DNA of 64,000 nt from Bacteroidetes Order II. bacterium (GTDB lineage Bacteria; Bacteroidota; Rhodothermia; Rhodothermales; UBA2364). This document shows positions 825-15,639 of the stretch, piece after piece. The stretch spans positions 1-64,000 of the forward strand of contig JAEUSQ010000057.1 of assembly GCA_016788705.1 (NCBI GenBank), in the 5' to 3' direction. Each line of letters starts with the position of its first letter. The stretch's first letter is position 1. Made by a program: the position numbers and the translations under genes. The notes beneath the pieces were generated by a model. The model made no database searches. It saw only the letters and a list, made by a program, of their open reading frames with translations, and was not told the origin of the DNA.

Positions 825-1397
825 GTGCCAAGCGTGCCCATTACACAACTGCTCCAGCATGTACGGGCCGGAGACCCCAGTTCCCACGCACAACTCTTGC
901 CCTTGATCTACGAGGAGTTGCGGCATATTGCACACCGTCAACTTTCGGGAGAACGCGCCCAGACCTTGATGACCACCGATTTGGTGCATGAGGCTTGGCT
1001 ACGCTTGGTGGATGCACCTTTGCAAAACCTAAACGACCGCCTGCACTTCTTTGCGGTGGCCGCACGCGCCATGCGTCAGGTTTTGGTGGATGCAGCGCGA
1101 CGGCGGAATGCAGCCAAACGAGGCGGAAGCCTGCAACCCATGCCGATAGAAGATGCGGCAGACTGGCTCTCCGAGCATAAATCGGAGGCATTGCTTGCGT
1201 TGAACGATGCGTTGGAACAGTTACAAGAAATGGATGAACGCATGGCCAGCATCGTGGAACTCCGCTATTTTGGAGGGTTAACCATTGCAGAAACCGCGAA
1301 ATTATTACAGGTCTCGGATTCTACGGTAAAGCGCGATTGGGAAACCGCCAAGGTCTGGCTTTTTTCCGAATTAAAGGGCATTCCATTAGATCTTTAG
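825..1397 (+). CDS. ECF RNA polymerase sigma factor (TIGR02999-like)
   Basis: This 190-aa protein has the layout of an extracytoplasmic-function sigma factor. Region 2 near residues 15-90 carries the pattern YEELRHIAHRQL and TTDLVHEAWLRL, which is typical of the Sigma70_ECF / TIGR02999 group. Region 4 near 130-180 holds the helix-turn-helix with GGLTIAETAKLLQVSDSTVKRDW. The start is a GTG. In this group the sigma factor often sits next to a PknB-type kinase rather than a classical anti-sigma factor, and here a kinase gene follows about 125 bp downstream on the same strand. That suggests the kinase controls this sigma factor. The target genes are unknown, but the surface-protein genes just downstream are the obvious candidates. 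That last link is inference. Confidence 0.9.
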   Translation: MPSVPITQLLQHVRAGDPSSHAQLLPLIYEELRHIAHRQLSGERAQTLMTTDLVHEAWLRLVDAPLQNLNDRLHFFAVAARAMRQVLVDAARRRNAAKRGGSLQPMPIEDAADWLSEHKSEALLALNDALEQLQEMDERMASIVELRYFGGLTIAETAKLLQVSDSTVKRDWETAKVWLFSELKGIPLDL

Positions 1398-1521
1398 CCC
1401 GCTTCAGGTACTAAAGCATTAGACACCTTTTTGGACTTCGGAGACCTACTCGGATTGTTTTTTGCGCATATACCCATATCGGATTTCTAAATTCGCTCAT
1501 TGCCCCAAGCCAACTTTGCTT

Positions 1522-4248
1522 ATGTATAGTCCTGAACGCTGGAAGCGCATCAAAACGGTATTTGAGCAGGCGCTTGACCTTCCAGTATCCGATCGCCTTG
1601 TTTTTCTGGCTCAAGAAGCCAAAGAAGATGCCGAATTAGAGCAAGAAGTATTGCGCCTTTTGGCTGCAGAGGCAGGCGCGGCCACTTTTTTAGAGAAGCC
1701 TTTGTTGCCACAAATGGTCTCGGAAGGGCAAGATCTTGGCCCCTATCGGTTAGAAAAACGCATCGGACGGGGAGGCATGGGGCAGGTCTTCCTTGCGGTA
1801 CGTCGGGATGGTGCCTTCGACCGGAAGGTTGCCCTAAAGCTCTTGCGGCCCGGTCTGAATACCGATGAGCTGTTGCGCCGCCTACACACCGAACGCCAGA
1901 TTTTGGCCCGTTTGCAGCACCCCCATATTGCCCAGATGCTGGACGGTGGCAGTACGCCTTGGGGCGATCCTTATTTCACGATGGAGTATGTGGACGGGCT
2001 GCCGATTACCCAGTTCTGCGACGCAAACCACAAAGGCGTAAAAGAACGGTTGGCCCTTTTTAGAACCGTTTGCGCCGCCGTCCATTATGCCCACCAAAAT
2101 TTGGTGGTTCACCGCGACCTGAAGCCCTCTAACATCTTGGTTACGGCAGACGGAACGGTAAAATTATTGGATTTTGGTATTGCGAAAGTATTGGCCGAAG
2201 ACGAAAAAGAAGCCCAAACCCAGACCATTTCTCAGGTGATGACCCCCGAATATGCCGCCCCCGAACAAGTCCGTGGCGAAGCCATCACCACCGCCACCGA
2301 TGTCTATGCACTCGGTATCCTTCTCTACGAACTACTCACCGGACAACGGCCTTATGTCCTTCATGAACGCGCTTTACAAGAAGTGGTGCGCATCATCAGC
2401 GATACCGATCCCATGAGGCCCTCCGACCGTGTGACAGATCCGGCTACCTCCCACTCATTGCCCCAATTGAACGACGAGAAGACCCACCACCGGAAGCAAT
2501 TGCAGCGTATGTTGCGTGGTGACTTGGACAATATGGTGATGATGGCCCTACGAAAAGAGCCAATACGGCGGTATGCCTCGGCGGAGGCTTTTTATACAGA
2601 CATTGACCGCTACTTAAAAGGAGAACCCGTAGCAGCACGCCCTAATACCGCAGGATATGTCATCCGCAAATTTGCGCTTCGTCACAAAAAAGGGGTGGGA
2701 ATTGCTGTTGCCATGTTGCTTTTGACGATTGGTTTTGCCTTTTGGCACGATTACCGCATTACACAAGAGCGAAACCATGCGCTTGAAGAAGCTGCCCGTG
2801 CAACTGCTGTTCAAAACTTGTTGGTAGGGCTGTTTGAAAAAGCGGATCCGTCTCAGGCACGAGGATTAGACCTTAGCGCCCGCGAAATCTTAGACATAGG
2901 CGCACGGGTGGCCAACGAGGAGTTAACCGATCAGCCGCATGTCAAAGCCGAGGTGTTGCGGGTACTGGGGCAGGTCTATGCCAAATTGGGCGAAGACGGG
3001 CAAGCAGAAGCCGTCTTGCGTGCGGCATACCGCGTACTAAAACAAAACACCCAAGCCCCACATATCTCGCTGGCAAGGTTCTATTCTACGTGGGGCGAGT
3101 GGAACCAAAACATGGGGTATTATGCCATTGCCGACTCGCTCTACCGTAGCGCCGACGAGATGTTTGCGGCGTTACATACCGAAAACCAGCCGGAGTTTGC
3201 AGACTTGGTACACAGGCGGGCCTACTTAGCACATGATGAAGGCAAAATGGCCGAAGCAGAGCAGTTTTATAAACAGGCCCTCCAATTGCGCCGAAGCCTC
3301 TATCCTTATAAACACCCCAAAGTGGCCCTCTCGCTCAACGATTATGGCGGCTACCTCATGAATATGGGGCGCTACGAGGAGGCCAAACAAATGATTACAG
3401 AAGCACTGCACATCCGACGCGCCGTTTATGGCGAGGCCCCACATCCCGAATTAGCTGAAAGTTTCTACAACATCGGATACCTCTACTTTGAAATGGATGA
3501 ATCCGAAAAAGCCCTGCCCTATTACCGTCAAACCCTTGCCATCGAGGAAAAACTTTATGCCGAAGACCATGTAGAAATTGCCACAACCCTAAACAATTTA
3601 GGCGGGGCACTCTTGATCTGCGACCGATACCAAGACGCTTTCGAGGTGCTAAGCCGCGCACTTCGTATCCAAGAAAAAGCCCTGCCCCCCGATCATGTCA
3701 ATATTGCGGTCACGCGACGAAATTTGGGGTTTACGTTTTTAGGCCAGCAGAAATTGGCCGAAGCCGAACAACAGGTACGCATGGCCGTTGCTGCCAAAGG
3801 AAACCTGAATACCTATTACCAAGGGGTGGATCTCACGCTTTTGGCCCGAATTTTGGTACAGCGGCAACAATTTAATGAAGCACAAACCCAGCTAAAAACC
3901 GCTGAAAAACTCATTCGGGAGTACTTACCACCAGACCACTACCGATTAAGCGATGTATGGATTGTGTGGTCGGAGTGGGCCAATGCACAAGGCCGATTTT
4001 CGGAAGCTGCACATTGGGCAGAACGCGCCATTACCTCCTTGGAAAAACAACCCAAAGAGAACCGCAATTATCTGGCCGATGCCCGTGCTGCATGGGGAGA
4101 AGCCCTAATCGGCCAGCAAAAATTTGCCGAAGCCGAGCGTGCCTTACAGCAAGTGGTGGCCCACTATCAGTCGCCAGACCGCGATGCTCCGATTCGTAAA
4201 CAAAAAGCAATAGCCGCACTTCAAGCGTTTTATCGGAAAAGGGGATAA
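1522..4248 (+). CDS. Membrane Ser/Thr protein kinase with TPR repeats
   Basis: This protein of about 908 aa starts at the ATG at 1522 (MYSPERWKRI); an upstream in-frame start at 1462 adds an unlikely 20-residue leader. The N-terminal 80 residues match the short helical leader of ECF-linked kinases. The kinase domain follows: glycine loop IGRGGMGQVF from residue 81, lysine in VALKLL, catalytic HRDLKPSN from residue 197, DFG at 217-219 and an APE motif. One membrane segment lies near residues 391-408. The rest, about residues 420-900, is a series of tetratricopeptide repeats with pairs such as A-x-x-x-Y and L-x-x-x-G. By topology the kinase is cytoplasmic and the TPR part outside the inner membrane, where it could sense envelope proteins. 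All catalytic residues are present, so it should be active. Confidence 0.93.
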   Translation: MYSPERWKRIKTVFEQALDLPVSDRLVFLAQEAKEDAELEQEVLRLLAAEAGAATFLEKPLLPQMVSEGQDLGPYRLEKRIGRGGMGQVFLAVRRDGAFDRKVALKLLRPGLNTDELLRRLHTERQILARLQHPHIAQMLDGGSTPWGDPYFTMEYVDGLPITQFCDANHKGVKERLALFRTVCAAVHYAHQNLVVHRDLKPSNILVTADGTVKLLDFGIAKVLAEDEKEAQTQTISQVMTPEYAAPEQVRGEAITTATDVYALGILLYELLTGQRPYVLHERALQEVVRIISDTDPMRPSDRVTDPATSHSLPQLNDEKTHHRKQLQRMLRGDLDNMVMMALRKEPIRRYASAEAFYTDIDRYLKGEPVAARPNTAGYVIRKFALRHKKGVGIAVAMLLLTIGFAFWHDYRITQERNHALEEAARATAVQNLLVGLFEKADPSQARGLDLSAREILDIGARVANEELTDQPHVKAEVLRVLGQVYAKLGEDGQAEAVLRAAYRVLKQNTQAPHISLARFYSTWGEWNQNMGYYAIADSLYRSADEMFAALHTENQPEFADLVHRRAYLAHDEGKMAEAEQFYKQALQLRRSLYPYKHPKVALSLNDYGGYLMNMGRYEEAKQMITEALHIRRAVYGEAPHPELAESFYNIGYLYFEMDESEKALPYYRQTLAIEEKLYAEDHVEIATTLNNLGGALLICDRYQDAFEVLSRALRIQEKALPPDHVNIAVTRRNLGFTFLGQQKLAEAEQQVRMAVAAKGNLNTYYQGVDLTLLARILVQRQQFNEAQTQLKTAEKLIREYLPPDHYRLSDVWIVWSEWANAQGRFSEAAHWAERAITSLEKQPKENRNYLADARAAWGEALIGQQKFAEAERALQQVVAHYQSPDRDAPIRKQKAIAALQAFYRKRG

Positions 4249-4323
4249 TTTTTTTATCGGGTATGAACCAAATGGTATTGGGTTTGCGCATGTAAAGACA
4301 ATACACGCAAATCGCAACGCTTT

Positions 4324-6051
4324 ATGAACCGATCATACTTTTTATGGCTCTTATTTTGGTTGTGTGGCCCCCTCTTTTCTTCGGCCCAAACCATCGCCGA
4401 CCTAGAAAGGCAAGCCACTTCGACCAAACGCCCGATCATTTCTCTTAATGGCCAAATGGGCGGTAGTACCGAATTTTTCAGCTCCAACCGCCCCACCAAC
4501 CGATCCCCTTTTATCGGACAAGCATTTGTCAATACCGCGCTTTCTGTAGGAGGCTTCCGGACAGGGATGAACCTACTCTATTCTACCGATAACCAAAATT
4601 TCCGCCAATCGCTGAACCGTATCGGGGTAGAAGGAGGGTGGGCGTGGCTTCAACTGGGTGTGGGGGATACCTATCCGCAATTCTCGGAGTTGAGTCTTGG
4701 TGGCGTATCGCTCCGTGGGGCCTATGCCTTGCTCCAGCCACGTGGTTTCCGACTGGGTTTTGCGACAGGAACCACCCAGCAAGCCATAGAAGGACAACAA
4801 GATACAGGCGTTTCCGCCGATGGATTTTTGCAAGATGGGCAATTCCGACGGAGTTTACTCGCAGCCACATTGGGTCTTCAAGACAAGGTATTTAAACTCT
4901 ATTTGGTAGGGCTCTCGGCCAAAGATGACACGCTATCTATCCGAAATTTTGGTGCTACAAAACCAATGTCGAATCTGAGCATGACCGGTGTATTGGCCCT
5001 AAATACCAAATTCTTCATGTTGGAAGGCGAGGCCACTGGATCAGCCTTGAACTCGGATCTTTTTGCCACCAAAATCAATACCGAAGAAGTCTTAAACGCA
5101 GCCGAGAACCCCATTCCAGAGGTGTTAGACCCTGCTGTACGATGGGCTTTAGATCGTTTTGTACCCACTTTGGGCGCATCGGCCAGTTATGCGATACGCG
5201 CCCGCTCGGTAATCAGGATCCAGCCCGTGAGCCTGACCGGACAATTCCGGTACATTGCACCCGGTTTTCAGTCGCTGGGTTTATACACCACCCGCAACGA
5301 CGTACAATCGTGGCAGGTGCAGCCGATTCTTAATTTGGCCAAAGGGCGCTTTTCGGTTTCTGGTCTTTGGGGATCGGAAGTAAACAATTTGTCTGCCCAA
5401 CGAGCAGCTACCATTAGCCGAGACCTATGGATGGTAAACCTACGGGCACAGCCCGGGACAGTGTTCTCGTTTAATGGCCAAATACAACAAGTAGCGACTA
5501 GCTCGGAGGCAGCGATAGGAATGGCCACCGAAGCACGCCGACAAGTGGTGCAAAACCTAAGCCTTAGCCCAGCCCTTAACTTACCCGGACGCAAAAACCG
5601 AACGCATACGCTCCAGCTGAACGCAGGACTCCAACGGTTCACCAACGAAAACCAAGAACAACCTGCCAGTACCTTCGACAACCGCAATGCGTCACTTTTC
5701 TGGAATAGCCAGTTTCACCGAGATTTTGCGGTCAATCTCCAGACTGGGTACTTAGACAACCGAACAGCCTTTGGCGAAAGCCAGAGTCTGACGGCGCAAA
5801 TCGGTACGAATCGGGCCTTTGGGAAACGCAAATTCCGCTTAGATGCCTCCGCCGGATATACACAAACCGACCAGCAAATACCGGATCAACCCGCTGCCAC
5901 CTTCATTCAGTGGAGTAGCCGCTTGGGTGTCACGCTTCGGATAGATGCCAAAACCCAACTTCAGGCATCTGCAACGGGTACGCTCAATCAAAACGAAAAC
6001 AATACCTTCCGTGAACTAAGAAGCCGTGTACAACTTACCCGTCGTTTTTAA
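4324..6051 (+). CDS. Probable outer-membrane beta-barrel protein, unknown family
   Basis: The 575-aa product starts with a clean signal peptide (MNRSYFLWLLFWL, cleavage after SSAQ). The mature protein is made of many short alternating-polarity strands with aromatic ends (for example RFRLDASAGYTQ and VTLRIDAKTQLQASATG) and ends in QLTRRF, a terminal phenylalanine as in many outer-membrane barrels. I see no TonB box, plug domain or known enzyme motif. It lies 75 bp after the kinase gene and 21 bp before the giant exported protein, so the three are probably co-transcribed. It could be a surface anchor or a dedicated export pore for the giant protein; both are inference. The function is unknown. 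Confidence 0.75.
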   Translation: MNRSYFLWLLFWLCGPLFSSAQTIADLERQATSTKRPIISLNGQMGGSTEFFSSNRPTNRSPFIGQAFVNTALSVGGFRTGMNLLYSTDNQNFRQSLNRIGVEGGWAWLQLGVGDTYPQFSELSLGGVSLRGAYALLQPRGFRLGFATGTTQQAIEGQQDTGVSADGFLQDGQFRRSLLAATLGLQDKVFKLYLVGLSAKDDTLSIRNFGATKPMSNLSMTGVLALNTKFFMLEGEATGSALNSDLFATKINTEEVLNAAENPIPEVLDPAVRWALDRFVPTLGASASYAIRARSVIRIQPVSLTGQFRYIAPGFQSLGLYTTRNDVQSWQVQPILNLAKGRFSVSGLWGSEVNNLSAQRAATISRDLWMVNLRAQPGTVFSFNGQIQQVATSSEAAIGMATEARRQVVQNLSLSPALNLPGRKNRTHTLQLNAGLQRFTNENQEQPASTFDNRNASLFWNSQFHRDFAVNLQTGYLDNRTAFGESQSLTAQIGTNRAFGKRKFRLDASAGYTQTDQQIPDQPAATFIQWSSRLGVTLRIDAKTQLQASATGTLNQNENNTFRELRSRVQLTRRF

Positions 6052-6072
6052 CCACCCTTCAACACCATGCTC

Positions 6073-9000
6073 ATGAAAACAGCCCTTTCTTCCTCCTTCT
6101 TGCGTTTGACGGGATTTTTACTCTTCCTCCTGCCCTTGTCGTTACGCGCACAATCCACAGAATGGTCGGTACTCGTTTCCGGCATCCCGTCCAATCCGCC
6201 CAATACCGTCAGTAGTCTATTAGACTTGTTGGACTCTGGTAAGATCACAGTTTCGGTACGTTATACTGGATCCAGCAGCCCAACGGTTTATGTGAATGTA
6301 TTGGTCACCTCGGACTATACAGGGGCGGCGGGTGTGGCCACCAATGGTCTCGGGACGGCCCTCGACCGTGCAAGGTCTCTCGGTCTGAACACCTCACGGG
6401 TTTTGGCCACAGCCTTTTCGGCAGCCCATACCATGCAAAAAGGCCCCTTCTCCGAAGTCCGAACGTTAAGAAACTGGGCAGACGATTTAAGTTGGCGCAC
6501 GAACTATGATCCCAAACTCCGGAATACCCTCATCCAAACCAATGCGCTTCCAGAAGGGCAGCATGGCCTCTATGTCTGGCTTTCCACCAAATCTGACGGT
6601 CAGGGTGATCTCCTCGCCGAGTACACCTACTCCACCCAATTTAGCAGCCCGGAGCCGCCCATTCTCCTTAGCCCGCAGCATCAGACAACCCTACGGGAAG
6701 CCTATCCGCGGTTTTCGTGGCAGACGGCGACCGCTTCGTATCCAATGGGTGATGTGTTCTACCGCCTCCGGATTGTAGAGGTGCTACCAGGGCAAAGTAA
6801 CGAACAAGCCCTTCGCACCAATGCAGACTATTTTGCAACCAGTATCAAAAATGCCACCCAATTGGCCTATCCTGCCGATGCGCTAAAATTTGAGCATGGC
6901 CGCACTTATGCTTGGGAGGTGGCAGCATTGGATGCCGATAGCCAGCCTATTGCCACAAGATTCCGTAGCGAAGCCTTTACGTTTTCGTATTCCGATCCGC
7001 AAGAACAAGGATATATTATAGCCCTTAAGCCAAGTAAGTCAAATTTTCGAGCAGGCGACCGTTTGCTGGCTCAGGCGCAGTTAGAACCTTCTCCCCAAAA
7101 AGATGCAGGGGCATGGAACGCCTTGGGGGTGGAAAAAGTGGTGATAACCGACGAAAAATTTGATATGGCGGATCTGCAAACCCCCGGCGTTTTTGACCGA
7201 TTGATGCTTTCCGTTTCACCCGGCTTCACGCCCTCACGCGAGGTACTATTACTCCAAAACCAAGCCATACAAAGTACCGAATGGCTCTTAGATGATGTGG
7301 GGCAGTCCTATGTCTTGGCTTGGCGTTTTATGGGAAAGACCGCCAGTGGCAACCAATACAGCACCGTACAATATGTACTGGTTCGGTCATCGGCTCCGGT
7401 ACAGCTACGCCTTGCAGAAGCGGGAGGCCAAACGCCCAAAACCACGAACGATCCCCTGCCATTTTCCTTCACCAAACTGCCCGATACAGGATGGAGTGGC
7501 CTGACGGTCAAAGCACTTCTCTACCCCATTCCAGAAGGAGCCGACGAAAACACGACGGCACAAACCCTTTTCGGACAATTTAGTACCCTATACAACCAGC
7601 CGCCCCCCGGCATACAAACTTGGCAACAGGTATTGGCTGGCGCGACGAATGGTGTCTTATCCCTTCCGGCAAACGATCTGGAAGGCCCTGTATTTGTGGC
7701 ATTCCGTGTAGAAGGCATGGTTAATAACCAGATCGTCCGCTCTGGGGTAGGCTTATATAAGTTAACCCAACCTCCTTCCAATCTTGTATTGCGCCGCATT
7801 GCCGGAATCATTACCAATCTCGCTGGAGACCCGCTGGGTAGTTACGATGTGACCCTACGGTTTACGACGATAATCGGACAAATCCGACGGGCAGTTACCT
7901 TGAACACCCGCACGGACGCCAATGGCGGCTACCGCTTTGAATTGGAATTCCCCAAATTAACGGCTCCTAATGATCGAAGTCCCTTGCCCTTTGAACTGTC
8001 GGTGGATGGTAAAGCCTATTATTTCTCCCAAGTATGGCAAGGTTCTTTGAGAGGGCAGAATATTGAAAATATAGACTTTACCCTCTCTCCGGATCGCCAA
8101 GATTTTGTGTTTATGGGCGATGTGGAAGACGAGGCTGGGTTCAATGTAGAAGATGCGCAGGTTTTTTTCCAAACCCGAAACGCAGGATTGGGCATAGCAG
8201 CAACATGGGAACCCCTCCAGCCCTATACCGCACAGACCATTGGGAATGGCAAGTTCCAAATCCGCTACTCCTTCCCAACCGCGCAGACACCAACCGAGGC
8301 CAATCCAAAAGAATTTCGTTTGCGTATCGTCCCGCCCGCCAACCTGATAGGAAAGCTATTGGAACGCACCTATACGGGTTTTCTGACAGGCCGCGACATT
8401 CTGAATTTTGCGGTAGAACTGCCCGGAGTGGGCGGCCAAATTACCGGGCGCTTGGAACGTATGGAAACTGGCCTGGCTATGACCAATGGCGTAGCAGAAT
8501 TGCGTGACACCAATGGGCAAACCCTTCAACGCAGTGGCTTACGAAGTGGCACTTTTACTTTCCAAAACCTATTGCCGGGTACGTATAACCTATACTTTGT
8601 CAAAAATGGCTATCAGTCGGCTTTACATCCGCACAATCCCATTTTGGCAGGTGGCATACGGGTAAATTGGGCAGACCAAATCAACCTTCAAACCCTTCAG
8701 GCCAAGCCGAATGACAAACCTTTTTATCTGAGCGCCCGTAACCGTGACAACGAGCCTGCCGCCGCTACCATTTTTGCCATGAACACTGCCCAATTCCAGG
8801 CATTTCAGTCTTGGCGGCTCATGAATACATGCGCTTCGGCGATGCCACTTCCAGCACTGTTTACCTATCATTCGGTGGCTGATGCCAATGCGAATGCGCA
8901 GCAACATCTGCACCTCCTCCCGACGTTAGATGGCGACTTTGGGGAAACCCAATACCATTTTGTGTATTTCCTCCCCGGTCATGGCTTCCGGATGCGGACA

Positions 9001-12000
9001 ATTGAAGCCACAACCGATGCACCAGAAACACAGCAGATTCGGCTCACTGCTTGCCCAACTACCATTTCGGGCATTGTGCGTCGGAATGATACAAACGAAC
9101 CTGTTGTGGATGCCTTCGTCCAGATACAATCTGGCGACTTGACGTATTCACAAAACACGAATGCAGACGGTTTATATGTTTTTCAAGGGATTTCAGCAGG
9201 AAATTATACGATCACAGCCCAAAAAACAGGTATTGGTTCCATTCGCGTTGCCGGTATTCAGGTAGATGCTGCTTCGCAACGTCAGGTGGATTTGATGATC
9301 AACCGCGAAACAGGGAGCCTTTCTGGTTTTGTGCGAGATACCAACGGCGTTGGGCGCTATGATGCCCTTGTGACAATCAATGGTTTGGGGCGAAATACCC
9401 GTACCGCCGCAGATGGCAGTTACCGGATAGACCTTGTACCGCTCGGCGAGTATCGCATGACCGCTTCTTCTACAGGACTACGAACGGCCACCTCGCAACC
9501 AACGACGATTTCCGTGAACCGAACCACCACCCTCAACTTCAGTCTGGAGGAAGTGCGGGGCAATGTTCGCTTAACCATTTATGGGCCACAAAATGTGGTC
9601 ATTCCAAATGCAGTCGTAGAAATTCCCGCTACAAACCAGAGTCAGAGAACCGACGGGAATGGGGTCGTCCTATTTGAAGACATACGGGCGGGATCCACAA
9701 CCTTCCGTGTTTCTACCCCAAACGGCCCGTTTACGCCCAAGACCCAAACCCTCAACTTTGCGTTCCTGCTCTCGAACGAAGCAAGGGCTTCTATTTTCTT
9801 AAACGAAGGCATGGTTGTGCGCGGCGTTGTCCGAAGCAACCTTGGAAGGCCACTTTCGGGTGTACGGGTGAGCATGGAAGGCCGCCCCGATCTCACGACC
9901 ACCACCAATGATTTAGGTGAATACCTCTTGCGGGGTATCGCGGGATTCAATGGCGGAACCGTTGCAGGCGTAAATATTCCGGCCTCCACACCGCTGATAT
10001 TGGCCACCAAAACAGGATTTCAAGCAGGTTCCCAAACGGTTACTTTTGCTTCCGGAGAAACCGTATTTGCCGATTTTACCCTACAACCAGCCCCCTTCGA
10101 CCGCTTGTTGGGTTTCCAAATCTTCGTGGAAAACCTGCGGGAAGAAAATGGCCGTCGCTTTGTTTCGGGTGCGTTTACAGCCGTTCCCAATACCCCACTT
10201 CTCACGTTAGCCCCACAAATACAGTTACCCTTCGACGAGCTTGAAATAGATGCCAATAACCGTCCTATTGGTGGCAGCGCCCGGCTTTCGATAGGGAACT
10301 TGTCGCTACGCCTGTTTGGTATCGAAGCAACCTTACGTGGGCCTAATGGCCAACCGCTAGAATTGATCGCACAAGCCAACGGTACAGGCGCTATCCGAGG
10401 GGAAATCCTGCTACAAACAGACCGCCTGCTCTCATTGATTCCGGGGGCATCGGCCACGCCCATCCTCATTCCGCTTCCAGTTTCTTGCAACAATGGCCCG
10501 TGTCTTACAGCAGATGGCCTCTCGGCATTTAATGCAGATATTGTGCTACCTAACTTAGACTGGGAGATCCAGTTATGGGGATATAGCCTTCAAATACAAC
10601 GCCTTACCCTCAATAGAAATGGTATCTGTTTAAATGGTGAAATACCCGTGGCAGGCATACAACCCATTCGGTTTACGGGGCTTTGTATCTCGCCCGAAGG
10701 CCGGGTTACTGGGCCAACCATCCCTGAATTTACCTTCGACATTTCGGCCTTCCACTTCCAACTACGCACCATTCGTTTTGATGCCGGAGGATTGAGCGCC
10801 GCCAGTGGCACCATTGGCATCAACGGCCTGGCCGCAAATGGGGGCCGCCTCTCCATCAACTTCCGAAACCTGCGCATTTCCACACAAGGACAAATTGTGC
10901 GTGCAGACATCGAGGTTCCGAACAATCGGCTGGCCATTCCGGGCTTTCCTATGAATATCACATCCGCCAGCTTCGTAACCTTGGGACAAGACATTGCCCT
11001 ACGCTTTGGGGGGAATATCCCTCTACCGGACCCAATAGGCCGCAGCCTGACTCTACAATCTCTCGAAATTGCACAAAGCGGCGCGGTTTCCGCACTACTT
11101 CCTGCCAACACTCGTTTTGATCTAGCGGGCATTCAGGTCTTGCTCGCTAATATGAACCTACAAGTCAATGGGCCGAATATCCGCTTGGATTTAGGAGCCA
11201 GCTTAGATTTCCCGATTCCCGGAATGCCTGCACCTGCTGCCCAAATGTATTTCAGCCACCGAAACGGCAACCTCAGTTTTGGGGTAAACGAGATCGCTGT
11301 GCCACGATTTAGTCTGGGGCCTGTAAGTTTAGACAACCTACGGTTTGGATACCAAAATCAGACCTTCTCTGGTAGTTTAGATATGGCGATTGCTGGAACA
11401 ATGGAAGTAGGTGGCTCTTTTCGGTATCGGGATGGCCGTAACTATGCCTTCGAGGTGCGGAACCAAACTCCTATTCCACTCGGCCCCATAGAACTGGCAG
11501 GATTTACGGGTGGGATGAGCCGCCAAAACGACAATTGGCGCTTTTATCTGCAAAATGTACAATTGGGCTTCCCCCGTACCCAAGACGCGCTGGCTTTAGT
11601 GGGTGACTTAGACGTGCGCCTATCAAATGGGGGGCCGCGTATCGAAATAGACGGACGTATGACCGCCGCTTCCGGACAACTCACCTTAGGAACAGCCCAC
11701 TTGTTGTTGGATGTACCACGAGGACGTTTTGAAGGCAATACCACCATCGGAAATCCTTTTGGTGAACCGATTCGCTCCGTCGCCAATGCTGAGGGAGCCG
11801 TAGATATTCGGGCAGGATGGCAACCTGGTGGCAACGACCTGCAATACTGGTTTGTAGGCGCACGATTGGATGTGGACTTGTTTAGGGTTATCGAGGCCAG
11901 AGGGCGGATGTTTGCCGGAGCCAATTATCGTCCCTTTGGCGATGTAGATCAACGTTTCCGAGATTATTTCAACCACCATCCCACTACAAATGAGGTACTG

Positions 12001-12369
12001 AATGGGATTTATGTCTCTGGCTATAGTGGAGGAAGTTTAGACTTAGATATTATCGAAGGTGGTGCCAATCAGGCCGTTTACTTTTTGTACGACTGGCGGC
12101 AACGACGCGCCGCCGGTGGGGCTTATGCACGGGTCTATGGTACGTTCGATGTTTACGTGGCTTCGCTCGGTGCTTCTTTCGATGTGAAAGGAGAGGTCAG
12201 TTACAATGGGCGTTGGGATATCCAAGGACGTGCAAACTCAAATCTAAAAGGAACCGTTTGGCCCTGCGATAGCAATTCTTCTTGTTCTCGTTGGTGTGCA
12301 GGGTGCTTGGGCGTAAGCGCCGAGTTAAGCTACCGAAATGGCAAGTTTGATGTGGATGTGGATTGGTAA
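6073..12369 (+). CDS. Giant exported multidomain surface protein
   Basis: This protein of about 2,098 aa has a signal peptide (MKTALSSSF... ending SLRAQ); an ATG two codons earlier (6067) is also possible. After an N-terminal domain (about 30-195) comes an Ig/fibronectin-like segment (about 197-315) with the ILLSPQHQT and YAWEVAALD patterns seen in giant Bacteroidota surface proteins. Residues of about 570-1330 hold at least six carboxypeptidase-regulatory-like (transthyretin-fold) repeats, recognisable by patterns such as GxVxxxxGxPLxGxxV and TDxxGxYxF. Residues of about 1340-2060 are almost all beta strands with repeated amphipathic pieces (LDNLRFGYQ, LQSLEIAQSG), and may form a solenoid or AsmA-like lipid-binding groove. 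The C-terminus has a cluster of four cysteines with spacing C-x5-C-x3-C-x2-C. I see no T9SS sorting domain. The role is unknown; it is likely a surface structural or adhesion protein working with its two neighbours. Confidence 0.75.
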   Translation: MKTALSSSFLRLTGFLLFLLPLSLRAQSTEWSVLVSGIPSNPPNTVSSLLDLLDSGKITVSVRYTGSSSPTVYVNVLVTSDYTGAAGVATNGLGTALDRARSLGLNTSRVLATAFSAAHTMQKGPFSEVRTLRNWADDLSWRTNYDPKLRNTLIQTNALPEGQHGLYVWLSTKSDGQGDLLAEYTYSTQFSSPEPPILLSPQHQTTLREAYPRFSWQTATASYPMGDVFYRLRIVEVLPGQSNEQALRTNADYFATSIKNATQLAYPADALKFEHGRTYAWEVAALDADSQPIATRFRSEAFTFSYSDPQEQGYIIALKPSKSNFRAGDRLLAQAQLEPSPQKDAGAWNALGVEKVVITDEKFDMADLQTPGVFDRLMLSVSPGFTPSREVLLLQNQAIQSTEWLLDDVGQSYVLAWRFMGKTASGNQYSTVQYVLVRSSAPVQLRLAEAGGQTPKTTNDPLPFSFTKLPDTGWSGLTVKALLYPIPEGADENTTAQTLFGQFSTLYNQPPPGIQTWQQVLAGATNGVLSLPANDLEGPVFVAFRVEGMVNNQIVRSGVGLYKLTQPPSNLVLRRIAGIITNLAGDPLGSYDVTLRFTTIIGQIRRAVTLNTRTDANGGYRFELEFPKLTAPNDRSPLPFELSVDGKAYYFSQVWQGSLRGQNIENIDFTLSPDRQDFVFMGDVEDEAGFNVEDAQVFFQTRNAGLGIAATWEPLQPYTAQTIGNGKFQIRYSFPTAQTPTEANPKEFRLRIVPPANLIGKLLERTYTGFLTGRDILNFAVELPGVGGQITGRLERMETGLAMTNGVAELRDTNGQTLQRSGLRSGTFTFQNLLPGTYNLYFVKNGYQSALHPHNPILAGGIRVNWADQINLQTLQAKPNDKPFYLSARNRDNEPAAATIFAMNTAQFQAFQSWRLMNTCASAMPLPALFTYHSVADANANAQQHLHLLPTLDGDFGETQYHFVYFLPGHGFRMRTIEATTDAPETQQIRLTACPTTISGIVRRNDTNEPVVDAFVQIQSGDLTYSQNTNADGLYVFQGISAGNYTITAQKTGIGSIRVAGIQVDAASQRQVDLMINRETGSLSGFVRDTNGVGRYDALVTINGLGRNTRTAADGSYRIDLVPLGEYRMTASSTGLRTATSQPTTISVNRTTTLNFSLEEVRGNVRLTIYGPQNVVIPNAVVEIPATNQSQRTDGNGVVLFEDIRAGSTTFRVSTPNGPFTPKTQTLNFAFLLSNEARASIFLNEGMVVRGVVRSNLGRPLSGVRVSMEGRPDLTTTTNDLGEYLLRGIAGFNGGTVAGVNIPASTPLILATKTGFQAGSQTVTFASGETVFADFTLQPAPFDRLLGFQIFVENLREENGRRFVSGAFTAVPNTPLLTLAPQIQLPFDELEIDANNRPIGGSARLSIGNLSLRLFGIEATLRGPNGQPLELIAQANGTGAIRGEILLQTDRLLSLIPGASATPILIPLPVSCNNGPCLTADGLSAFNADIVLPNLDWEIQLWGYSLQIQRLTLNRNGICLNGEIPVAGIQPIRFTGLCISPEGRVTGPTIPEFTFDISAFHFQLRTIRFDAGGLSAASGTIGINGLAANGGRLSINFRNLRISTQGQIVRADIEVPNNRLAIPGFPMNITSASFVTLGQDIALRFGGNIPLPDPIGRSLTLQSLEIAQSGAVSALLPANTRFDLAGIQVLLANMNLQVNGPNIRLDLGASLDFPIPGMPAPAAQMYFSHRNGNLSFGVNEIAVPRFSLGPVSLDNLRFGYQNQTFSGSLDMAIAGTMEVGGSFRYRDGRNYAFEVRNQTPIPLGPIELAGFTGGMSRQNDNWRFYLQNVQLGFPRTQDALALVGDLDVRLSNGGPRIEIDGRMTAASGQLTLGTAHLLLDVPRGRFEGNTTIGNPFGEPIRSVANAEGAVDIRAGWQPGGNDLQYWFVGARLDVDLFRVIEARGRMFAGANYRPFGDVDQRFRDYFNHHPTTNEVLNGIYVSGYSGGSLDLDIIEGGANQAVYFLYDWRQRRAAGGAYARVYGTFDVYVASLGASFDVKGEVSYNGRWDIQGRANSNLKGTVWPCDSNSSCSRWCAGCLGVSAELSYRNGKFDVDVDW

Positions 12370-12428
12370 TACACCCTACCCCATAATCACCCTCATTTTT
12401 TGTATAAAGTATAAAAAAGCATAGACCT

Positions 12429-14375
12429 ATGAAAAAGTTTTTTTTCTTGCTATTCTGCCTCTGCCTTCACTTAATAGAAAACCATGCAGTAGCACAAGAG
12501 GGCGGTTTTGCCCTGCGCGGTCCCGGCGGTGTAGTCTTGGCATGGGAAGGAGCCGTACTCAACCAAACCAATCCTATTGGTGGCTTTGTCGGATACCATA
12601 TCTATCGCGAATCTCCGGGAAGTGACCCTATTCGCCTGACCGATCAACCGTTGTCCATGCCTGCCAACGAAGCCGAATTGACGCAGAAAGCAGGAGATCG
12701 CGTAATAAAATGGATCAAAGCGGCACGTGCAAAAGATGCCGAAGCCTTGTTGCGCCGTATCCAAACCGAAGACCCACGTACCAAATTATTATTTTTGTAC
12801 GACCCATTTTTTGCCGAAGTCGCGGGAGTACGCTATACAGACCGCACCGCAAAACCACAACAAACTTATACCTATCGCGTAGTTCAGGTTAAAACCGATG
12901 GAACCGAATCTGCCCCTATTGCACGGTTTCAAGTGGCAGCAGGGTTGCCAGAGCCGCCCGCAAAGCCAACAAGCATCCATATCGTACAACAAGGTTTACT
13001 ACCCATTGTACAGTGGTCTCCCAACAAAACCGCCAAAGCGCCCTTTTATCATGTTTATCGTAGCACATCCCCAGACCGAAGCTGGATTCGGGTACACCCC
13101 AATCCGGTCATCATCCTGCCGCGAAGCGACGATCCAGAGCCAATGGGTATTTTTGCCGACTCCACCCTTGCACTCGATGAGACAGTCTATTATGGCGTGC
13201 GGGCAGTAGATCTGGCTGGAAATGAAAGCGAGTTAACCGTTTCGCCAAGTATTCGCCTACACCCCACCCGCCACTACCCGCTTCCAGACAGCATCCACAC
13301 CATTTCAGTGGGCAATACCATACAATTGCGCTGGAAAAACCGTCCCGAAAATGCCGCAAGGGGCTTTGGAATCCTACGGGCCTCCTTAAGCAATCCAAAA
13401 GACCTTCGGTTACTCACGACGCAGCCCCTTGCACCAGAAATGACCGCCTTCTCTGATCCTAATGTACAAGGCGAAGACGCATACCTCTACCGCATCTTGT
13501 TATATGATGAAACAGGCGCAGTGGCGGATACGTCTGCCCAAATTCCAGCCATTTGGGAAAACACCGAAATCTTGCCCGCACCCGAAAACGTGGCCATAAA
13601 GGTACAAGACGAAAAAACTTTGCTTTCATGGGAAGCCGTTTACGGCGCAATCGGATACGAAGTATTCTACTTTGCCGCCGTCGGAGCCGACCCCATCCAA
13701 CTGTCTGCCCGTATTCCTGCCACCGAATCCATGTTTGTATTGCCCGCACACTTACTCCGAAAAGGAGAAGTGGCTGGGTTTTCCGTTCAAGCCATCAATG
13801 CCTCTGGAAAGTCAGGGCAAATCAGTGAACCCACCTTTTACACACCCAACCTTGCACCAAACCCACCAGAAAACATCGAGATAACGCCCGTTCTGGGAGG
13901 TATTCAACTAAACTGGCAAGCCCCCTATAACCAATTCCCAGACCGATACCGCATCTTCCGTAGCACCACAGATGGTCAGTGGGAACAAATTGGAACCGTT
14001 ACATCGGGAGAACCATTGCACTGGTTGGATGAGAATCCGGCTACCGAAACCAGATCATATGCAATTACCGCCGTTTTAGGCCCACAAGAAAGTCCACCAA
14101 CCCAAAGCCGAACTGTCGTCGCCACCTCCACTCCTGCCGCGTCTCTACAAGCGAGTGGAACTTCCAAAGGCATCTTGCTCACATGGACAAATCCAGAACC
14201 ACATACCGTCTATCGCCGTACTGGAAATGGCCTGCTGGAAAAAGTCGCCAATACCATTTCGGATGGCTTATGGCTGGATGCAACGGTTCAAAAAGGGAAA
14301 CGCTATGCCTACGTGATTACCGCCGCTACCAACCCAAACTTGCATTCAGAAGAGGTCTCTATCACCTTCCACTAA
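12429..14375 (+). CDS. Exported fibronectin type III-repeat protein
   Basis: The 648-aa protein begins with a signal peptide (MKKFFFLLFCLCLHL, cleavage near AVAQ). The mature part contains about five fibronectin type III-like domains. Each is marked by a W near the start (VVLAWEG, PIVQWSPN, IQLRWKN, TLLSWEA, IQLNWQA, ILLTWTN) and a Y-x-V/I pair late in the domain (YTYRVVQ, YYGVRAV, YLYRILL, RSYAITAV, YAYVITAA). No catalytic motif or C-terminal sorting signal is visible. It follows the giant protein by 59 bp on the same strand and is probably made with it. It most likely acts in protein-protein or protein-carbohydrate contact at the cell surface. The function is inferred only from the repeats and the location. 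Confidence 0.8.
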   Translation: MKKFFFLLFCLCLHLIENHAVAQEGGFALRGPGGVVLAWEGAVLNQTNPIGGFVGYHIYRESPGSDPIRLTDQPLSMPANEAELTQKAGDRVIKWIKAARAKDAEALLRRIQTEDPRTKLLFLYDPFFAEVAGVRYTDRTAKPQQTYTYRVVQVKTDGTESAPIARFQVAAGLPEPPAKPTSIHIVQQGLLPIVQWSPNKTAKAPFYHVYRSTSPDRSWIRVHPNPVIILPRSDDPEPMGIFADSTLALDETVYYGVRAVDLAGNESELTVSPSIRLHPTRHYPLPDSIHTISVGNTIQLRWKNRPENAARGFGILRASLSNPKDLRLLTTQPLAPEMTAFSDPNVQGEDAYLYRILLYDETGAVADTSAQIPAIWENTEILPAPENVAIKVQDEKTLLSWEAVYGAIGYEVFYFAAVGADPIQLSARIPATESMFVLPAHLLRKGEVAGFSVQAINASGKSGQISEPTFYTPNLAPNPPENIEITPVLGGIQLNWQAPYNQFPDRYRIFRSTTDGQWEQIGTVTSGEPLHWLDENPATETRSYAITAVLGPQESPPTQSRTVVATSTPAASLQASGTSKGILLTWTNPEPHTVYRRTGNGLLEKVANTISDGLWLDATVQKGKRYAYVITAATNPNLHSEEVSITFH

Positions 14376-14652: not shown

Positions 14653-14960
14653 ATGGCTGCAAAAGACAAATACCACGAAGCGGTAAAAGTTGCACTGATT
14701 AAAGAAAAATGGATTATCATACACAATCCATACATTTTGCACGTGGACAACAAAGACGATTGGCAAGGAGATTTAGGCGCAGAAAAAATTTTGGCGACAG
14801 AAAAAGGAAGCGGAAAAATTGCAGTAGAAATTAAAACATTTGGAAACCCTTCGCACTATTCCGATTTTCATGTAGCCCTTGGGGCAATACATCAATTACA
14901 AATTTGCCTTACCAATCCAAGAGCCTGAGCGTCGTATCGTTTTGGCGTTTCCAGCGACGG
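14653..14960 (+). pseudogene. xisH: Broken XisH-type protein (fdxN excision controlling factor family)
   Basis: The reading frame from the ATG at 14653 matches the N-terminal two-thirds of XisH: AAKDKYHEAVKVALIKE near the start, a DLGAEK motif near residue 40, and KIAVEIKTF near residue 55-63. XisH proteins are usually about 138 aa and belong to the restriction-nuclease-like fold. At about 14881 the frame must shift: in the original frame it ends at 14928 as LGAIHQLQ, while the next frame continues with the expected GQYINYKFAL and PERRIVLAFP. One extra G in the GGGG run explains the shift. Beyond about 14960 the expected C-terminus is missing, and the next frame runs to 15196 with no similarity I can see. 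The usual partner gene xisI is absent. It is therefore a decayed remnant of a mobile xisHI pair. Confidence 0.8.
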
Positions 14961-15192
14961 TGCAAACTTGGAGTTTTGCGGTTCCCTGTCTGCCAGCAGG
15001 TATTCAAGTGCAGGTTGACAGCTTAGTGCTCCGAATTGAAAATCAGCGAAACGAAACCCCCACAGTGGTAAGCGACAAACCGTTAGAGCCAATGCTAACT
15101 AAGATAACGATGAATGCCTATAGATGTAGGACTTATACGTTTGACATCGTATCATCTGGCATTACGCCTCGAAAAAATAAAAACGCAATTTT

Positions 15193-15639
15193 ATGAATCC
15201 CATACTCAAAAAATTAGGCTATAAAGGCCAATCGTTGGTACTACTACTGGGGGCACCGGAGTCTTTTGCAGCGGTGGCACAAGCATTTGAAACGCCACCA
15301 GAAGTAATACCTAATAAAAAATACACCTTTATCCTTGCTTTTGCAAAAGATCAACAAGCCCTGAACGAATTGACTACGGGCATCACCACCCTTTTAGAAG
15401 GTGATGGACATCTTTGGCTGGCCTATCCCAAGAAAACTTCACGAGCGTACAAATCTGACCTCTCCCGCGAAGTGGTTGGGGCCTGTTTAGGAGGCCAAGA
15501 CTTCGAACCCGTGACACAAATTGCCATTGACGAAGACTGGTCCGCTCTCCGATTTCGGCATGTCGGCAATATTAAAACCATGACCCGCAGTTTTGCCGCC
15601 ACCCAAGAAGGTCAGAGGCGAACAAAGAAGCCTGACTAA
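15193..15639 (+). CDS. DUF3052-like small protein
   Basis: This 148-aa cytoplasmic protein starts with MNPILKKLGYKGQSLVLLLG and contains APESF, a central WLAYPKKTS motif near residue 77 and the end motif IDEDWSALRFRHV. These match the pattern I know for DUF3052-type proteins (start KLGxKxGxxV, APExF, LWxxWPKKxS, DLxRDVV, VDExWSGLxF). Their function is not known. The gene lies between the xisH remnant and recA, and ends about 160 bp before recA. The start ATG overlaps the tail of the decayed frame upstream. The assignment rests on recalled motifs only. Confidence 0.65.
   Translation: MNPILKKLGYKGQSLVLLLGAPESFAAVAQAFETPPEVIPNKKYTFILAFAKDQQALNELTTGITTLLEGDGHLWLAYPKKTSRAYKSDLSREVVGACLGGQDFEPVTQIAIDEDWSALRFRHVGNIKTMTRSFAATQEGQRRTKKPD

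Follow-up and report, generated by a model that had tools for sequence, protein, structure and literature searches.

A barrel–giant–FnIII gene module of Bacteroidota and its association with an ECF43-like sigma factor and kinase

Our analysis of a 64,000-nucleotide stretch of DNA from Bacteroidetes Order II. bacterium (hereafter the window; contig C57, starting at contig base 1, in a genome of 4.28 Mb) revealed a locus of five genes in which two parts can be told apart by comparison of gene neighbourhoods: a separate module of barrel, giant and FnIII genes, found across Bacteroidota, and a pair of sigma factor and kinase genes that was probably attached to such modules repeatedly. The strongest regularity is the near-obligate partnership of the barrel with the giant, which the original prediction, made from the sequence of the window, had missed. 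The five-gene set is not a product of chance, since it recurs in part or as a whole in dozens of genomes. We favour the explanation, on balance a likely one, that a three-gene surface module (barrel, giant and FnIII protein) stands here under the control of a local sigma-kinase switch.

Gene content of the locus

Five ORFs, all on the plus strand and separated by short gaps, were recovered by an ORF check of the window (Table 1), as had been predicted, and the proposed identities of four of the products were confirmed by Pfam and NCBIfam. The first gene encodes an ECF sigma factor (TIGR02999, E 4e-67; PF07638, E 1e-54). The second encodes a kinase (PF00069, E 1e-45) with seven TPR_12 stretches and a single transmembrane (TM) helix N-terminal to them; the motifs HRDLKP and DFG are present, so that by sequence the kinase motifs are intact. 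The ORF is open from TTG 1462, which had been listed as the start; orthologues start at ATG 1522, and the listed start is probably wrong and the latter the true one. The giant has a signal peptide, CarboxypepD_reg stretches (E 2e-44) and a C-terminal half left unclassified by Pfam, and its start may be ATG 6073 rather than 6067. The FnIII protein gave a weak fn3 match (E 5e-6, above the Pfam cut-off), and fn3 was also matched by 17 of 24 relatives. The barrel matched no Pfam or NCBIfam family, and its assignment came from structure prediction (see below). Over the giant, the nearest named relative, Bacteroidetes bacterium UBA2364 (Bacteroidota Order II), shows ~89% identity.

Table 1. Features of the locus, in coordinates of the window
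Feature	Coordinates	Strand	Description
ECF sigma factor	825..1397	+	TIGR02999 / ECF43-like; region 2.2 MTTDLVHEAW
Candidate regulatory element, kinase side	1461..1472	+	TTTGCGCATATA, upstream of kinase; kept in G237
Hanks-type Ser/Thr kinase	1522..4248	+	908 aa; one TM helix, extracytoplasmic TPR domain
Candidate regulatory element, barrel side	4283..4294	+	TTTGCGCATGTA, copy of the kinase-side element; kept in three species
Outer-membrane barrel (predicted)	4324..6051	+	~26 predicted strands; without Pfam family; partner of N-domain giants
Giant exported protein	6067..12369	+	2,100 aa; signal peptide, N-domain, CarboxypepD_reg repeats, all-beta C-terminal region
N-domain of giant	6265..7023	+	conserved, ~240 aa, N-terminal; Ig-like end; candidate barrel-recognition domain
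C-terminal region of giant	10054..12366	+	conserved in short-type giants; faint DUF6603 resemblance in relatives only
Exported FnIII-repeat protein	12429..14375	+	third gene of the module; without T9SS tail

The barrel and its giant partner

Within the class, 64 of 245 genomes contain the barrel; in a phylum-wide sample of 392 genomes, its profile matched 176, and weak matches there may include other barrels. About 85 neighbourhoods of barrel genes were read. In the class, the barrel gene is directly followed by the giant gene, usually at a distance of no more than 40 bp, and very often then by the FnIII gene; in other classes, the gene order of the module varies. The shortest giant has 1,351 aa and the longest have over 6,000, and while their bodies vary, the N-domain of ~240 residues just after the signal peptide is kept, being present in all 65 giants longer than 1,300 aa. 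A class-wide search with the N-domain profile (245 genomes) found 58 genomes with both partners, none with a clear barrel only and three with the N-domain only, two of which have weaker matches in the class barrel search. A barrel lies within 2 kb and on the same strand for 80 of the 99 strong N-domains, several of the others being at contig ends. In three genomes of the window's genus, barrels and giants number four each; a single barrel and a single giant are unlinked in every one of these genomes, so that the numbers still agree. As far as gene content tells, such near-obligate co-occurrence is the pattern of dedicated partners.

Several neighbourhoods had a particular composition. At G000:C39:354309-373459 (L052/L053), a ~6,400-aa N-domain giant followed by an FnIII gene occurs with no barrel, and on another contig (C50, L054) a barrel occurs without a giant. 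At L048 and L089, divergent genes 5' of the barrel encode GHL10 glycosyl-hydrolase-like proteins that have a T9SS tail.

An AlphaFold model of the barrel, built with an alignment of 33 members, had a mean pLDDT of 83 and ~26 long strands, with the chain ending in RF, and an outer-membrane barrel is therefore the likely fold, in agreement with the original prediction. The structure check that had also been suggested for the giant was uninformative in its C-terminal region (pLDDT 56, fold matches with TM 0.14). Membership of the giant in DUF6603 was rejected, as four of 16 relatives matched at E 0.005 or worse and the window giant did not; a literature search found no paper on DUF6603 or on the present gene set. 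The Foldseek matches of the barrel were generic (MtrB, the ushers FimD/PapC, porins; TM-scores 0.3-0.47, poor rmsd), and its profile had no match among PDB sequences. Relationships to SprA and to FimD were rejected (hhalign probabilities of 0.2 and 0.3). Among the 33 members, Pfam gave no Omp85/POTRA match at E <= 1, no TonB-dependent receptor or plug domain and no match to the usher family PF00577; this lack of POTRA, plug or other known translocation features counts against our preferred explanation, as does the weakness of the fold matches.

The module shares features with several known systems. In two-partner secretion (type Vb, TpsB/TpsA), a barrel gene likewise stands beside the gene for an exported protein of very large size, whose N-terminal domain is conserved and whose body varies (PMC5422565). 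However, TpsB is an Omp85 barrel of 16 strands with POTRA domains (PMC5422565), whereas ~26 strands are predicted for the window barrel, which has no POTRA/Omp85 match; the N-domain gave weak Ig-like matches and none to a TPS domain. Chaperone-usher barrels and MtrB, as the top fold matches, are similar in being large barrels, but the results with PF00577 and FimD do not place the window barrel among fimbrial ushers. The type IX secretion system (T9SS), a Bacteroidota route for large surface proteins, is present in the genome (SprA and 83 sorting tails), but the sorting tail (TIGR04183 / PF18962) is absent from the window proteins and from the 24 FnIII relatives, and the barrel profile is unrelated to SprA. 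Since the tail is absent and the barrel is a partner, export or anchoring of the giant via the barrel would be the simplest proposal. Finally, SusC/SusD-type loci also combine an envelope barrel with exported partners and often adjoin ECF sigma factors; here, by contrast, there is no TonB plug or receptor domain, SusD or anti-sigma factor, and the regulator is a kinase.

Some of these data could be read differently. The FnIII proteins match accessory domains of carbohydrate enzymes, with RGI_lyase beta domains matched by five of 24, the giant has CarboxypepD_reg repeats, and porins are among the Foldseek matches of the barrel; thus, the barrel could be a porin or an anchor, and the giant and FnIII protein could capture polysaccharides at the surface or in the periplasm, as an uptake set for which the sigma-kinase control is incidental. 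We regard this as unlikely, because the barrel is devoid of TonB/SusC features, variable bodies with one N-domain and co-occurrence with a barrel in 58 of 58 genomes fit partner recognition better than uptake, and no catalytic domain was detected by Pfam in the giant or the FnIII protein of the window.

Exported TPR proteins (~680 aa) adjoin the module at L059, L073, L080, L112, L119, L130-L132, L137 and L144, where the sigma-kinase pair is absent. Together with those at L061 and L093, by their resemblance to TPR_Slam, and with a SlipAM match of one barrel relative, they speak for a barrel family that would form a TPR-plus-barrel export machine (cf. Slam/T11SS and exopolysaccharide export) with a substrate other than the giant, the TPRs of the kinase being unrelated to it. 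Such a machine is improbable: most modules of the class have no TPR gene nearby, the SlipAM match is sub-threshold (E 0.015, one of 33 members), and exopolysaccharide synthesis genes were not identified at the window locus. Type XI/Slam proteins join TPRs and a 14-strand SlipAM barrel in one protein, unlike the window barrel with its ~26 strands and no TPRs. A barrel dedicated to the giant is the reading that we retain.

The sigma-kinase pair and its link to the module

Canonical ECF factors have an acidic DAED motif in region 2.2 (PMC13147305). At this site the close paralogues of the window sigma factor have NTTALVHEAY and the window protein MTTDLVHEAW; the acids are mostly replaced and Thr is conserved, as in the ECF43 factors EcfP (STTA) and EcfK (QATE), the latter being comparable to MTTD in retaining one acid. 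The genome has eight sigma factors of the TIGR02999 type, and all or nearly all of them adjoin a kinase gene. The same arrangement, a sigma factor beside a TM Hanks kinase, is found in EcfP/PknT of Vibrio parahaemolyticus, where PknT phosphorylates the second Thr of STTA, and in EcfK/PknS of Xanthomonas citri, where the TM kinase PknS phosphorylates EcfK and carries TPRs on its periplasmic side (PMC8999054, PMC13147305); TPRs outside the cytoplasm are also predicted for the window kinase. Family match, motif and kinase neighbour support an ECF43-like, phosphorylation-regulated type of sigma factor. As MTTD retains one acidic residue, the sigma factor may act without phosphorylation, which counts against our preferred explanation.

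Linkage was counted in the 63 loci of the class with at least 1.5 kb upstream, a sigma factor being scored within 4.5 kb. It stands beside the barrel in 16 loci, and 47 are without the pair; three further loci (L050, L056 and L111) have the sigma factor or the kinase alone within the fetched stretch. The pair is absent from all 20 loci of other classes, and two-component regulators (LytTR, LuxR and NtrC types) occur near some of them. In a congener (genome G238), the sigma factor gene lies behind an mnmA-like gene on a separate contig, and kinase, barrel, giant and FnIII genes are together elsewhere; this rearrangement (L178 and L056) parts sigma factor from kinase, both genes being kept. Since these 47 and 20 loci carry barrel and giant, often with the FnIII gene, and lack the pair, the surface genes are widespread without it, the very situation that the original prediction had named as contrary to itself. 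A fixed system of all five genes is not supported. That most modules are without the pair, and that the G238 sigma factor is unlinked, also weighs against our preferred explanation. What stands of the predicted regulated system is the type of the sigma factor, the intact kinase, adjacency far above chance, the changes in the sigma tree and a shared upstream element.

In 13 genomes with counted sigma factors, partly picked for having the pair and including relatives that are not independent, 10 of 26 barrels adjoin a sigma factor versus 0.35 expected. The sigma tree answers the point of non-independence: the barrel label needs at least four changes even when only well-supported branches are considered, versus a mean of 14.5 after shuffling. 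Of the groups of barrel-linked sigma factors, two belong to the window's genus and two to a genus from a different order; in the latter genus, so far as can be judged from the fetched stretches, one sigma clade is associated with short giants and another with long giants. Given adjacency far above chance and the number of changes in the tree, repeated attachment of pairs to the module is probable; and as most modules are without the pair and the G238 sigma factor is unlinked, the module is common and the switch optional.

A 12-bp sequence, TTTGCGCATRTA, chosen after inspection of upstream regions, has three copies in the genome, two of them in the window locus and the third inside a coding region. 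The kinase-side copy ends 49 bp 5' of the kinase ATG (1522), and the barrel-side copy ends 29 bp 5' of the barrel ATG (4324). G237 keeps both sites, and G238 keeps the barrel site; the G238 kinase is without the element, contrary to our preferred explanation. In a shuffle control, two of 300 shuffle pairs shared an equally good match. The TTTGC core is similar to the -7 box that ordinary promoters of Bacteroidota carry; for this reason, and because it was found by inspection, the element is suggestive of co-regulation of kinase and barrel and goes no further. A search for a motif shared upstream of 4324, 6073 and 12429 had been suggested; the element was found at the barrel, and also at the kinase, and no similar motif was found 5' of the giant (6067) or the FnIII gene (12429), as would be expected if barrel, giant and FnIII genes form one operon that begins 5' of 4324. 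The gaps of 15 bp (barrel-giant) and 59 bp (giant-FnIII) are consistent with a single operon. Among other candidates, TTNCGCATNTA was not adopted as a consensus common to the sigma-linked loci, being good only in L103 and borderline in L106, L113, L116, L120 and L121; that the element gave no clear consensus in divergent loci of other genera counts against our preferred explanation. The related dyad TTTGCGCA-N12-15-CACG, which occurs in the window as well as at some loci from another order, was rejected, as genome-wide it is not enriched versus a reversed control; this, too, counts against it.

The absence of the pair from most modules, the unlinked G238 sigma factor and the element with only two copies at the locus and a third in a coding region would also suit a pair that controls genes elsewhere, its place beside the barrel being an accident of this genus; we give this little probability, since sigma factors adjoin barrels far more often than by chance in several genomes and the sigma tree needs four or more label changes.

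Proposed working of the locus

According to our preferred explanation, the periplasmic TPR domain of the kinase would sense an envelope signal, and the kinase would phosphorylate the sigma factor at the Thr that is conserved in region 2.2, and possibly at further residues. The activated sigma factor could then bring RNA polymerase to the elements 5' of the kinase and of the barrel-giant-FnIII operon. The barrel would serve as a dedicated outer-membrane partner that recognises the N-domain of the giant and translocates or anchors the protein, and the FnIII protein would be displayed together with it. In favour of this explanation are the ECF43-type motif, the adjoining kinases, the adjacency of barrel and sigma factor, the sigma tree, the N-domain partnership, the upstream element and the absence of a T9SS tail. 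The genes with their domains, kinase motifs and synteny are observed; that the sigma factor is phosphorylated and uses these promoters, that the barrel translocates the giant, and that the proteins lie at the surface and bind a ligand is inferred.

It is possible, and we propose it only tentatively, that barrels and N-domain giants represent a pathway of Bacteroidota, so far undescribed, for secretion or display at the outer membrane, in which a large non-Omp85 barrel exports giants with interchangeable bodies by recognition of the common N-domain, under the control of locally attached signalling pairs (the ECF43 sigma-kinase pair here, two-component systems beside some other modules). Barrel and N-domain are without a Pfam family although barrel relatives occur in 176 of the 392 sampled genomes, so an envelope system that is common in the phylum may have been overlooked. 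The barrel-giant pair offers a direct test case for the surface route of tail-less Bacteroidota giants. Few targets of ECF43 sigma-kinase switches are known (polymyxin resistance and a T6SS), and a barrel-giant-FnIII module in Bacteroidota to which such pairs were repeatedly attached would be a new and testable class of target.

Two minor observations concern the flanks of the locus. The ORF at 14653-15196, which we take to resemble the fdxN excision factor XisH, is apparently split over two frames and is therefore a pseudogene or an assembly error. The reading frame of a small protein that looks exported (273-627) opens at ATG 273 and is continued in another frame after a run of eight A, a possible homopolymer frameshift.
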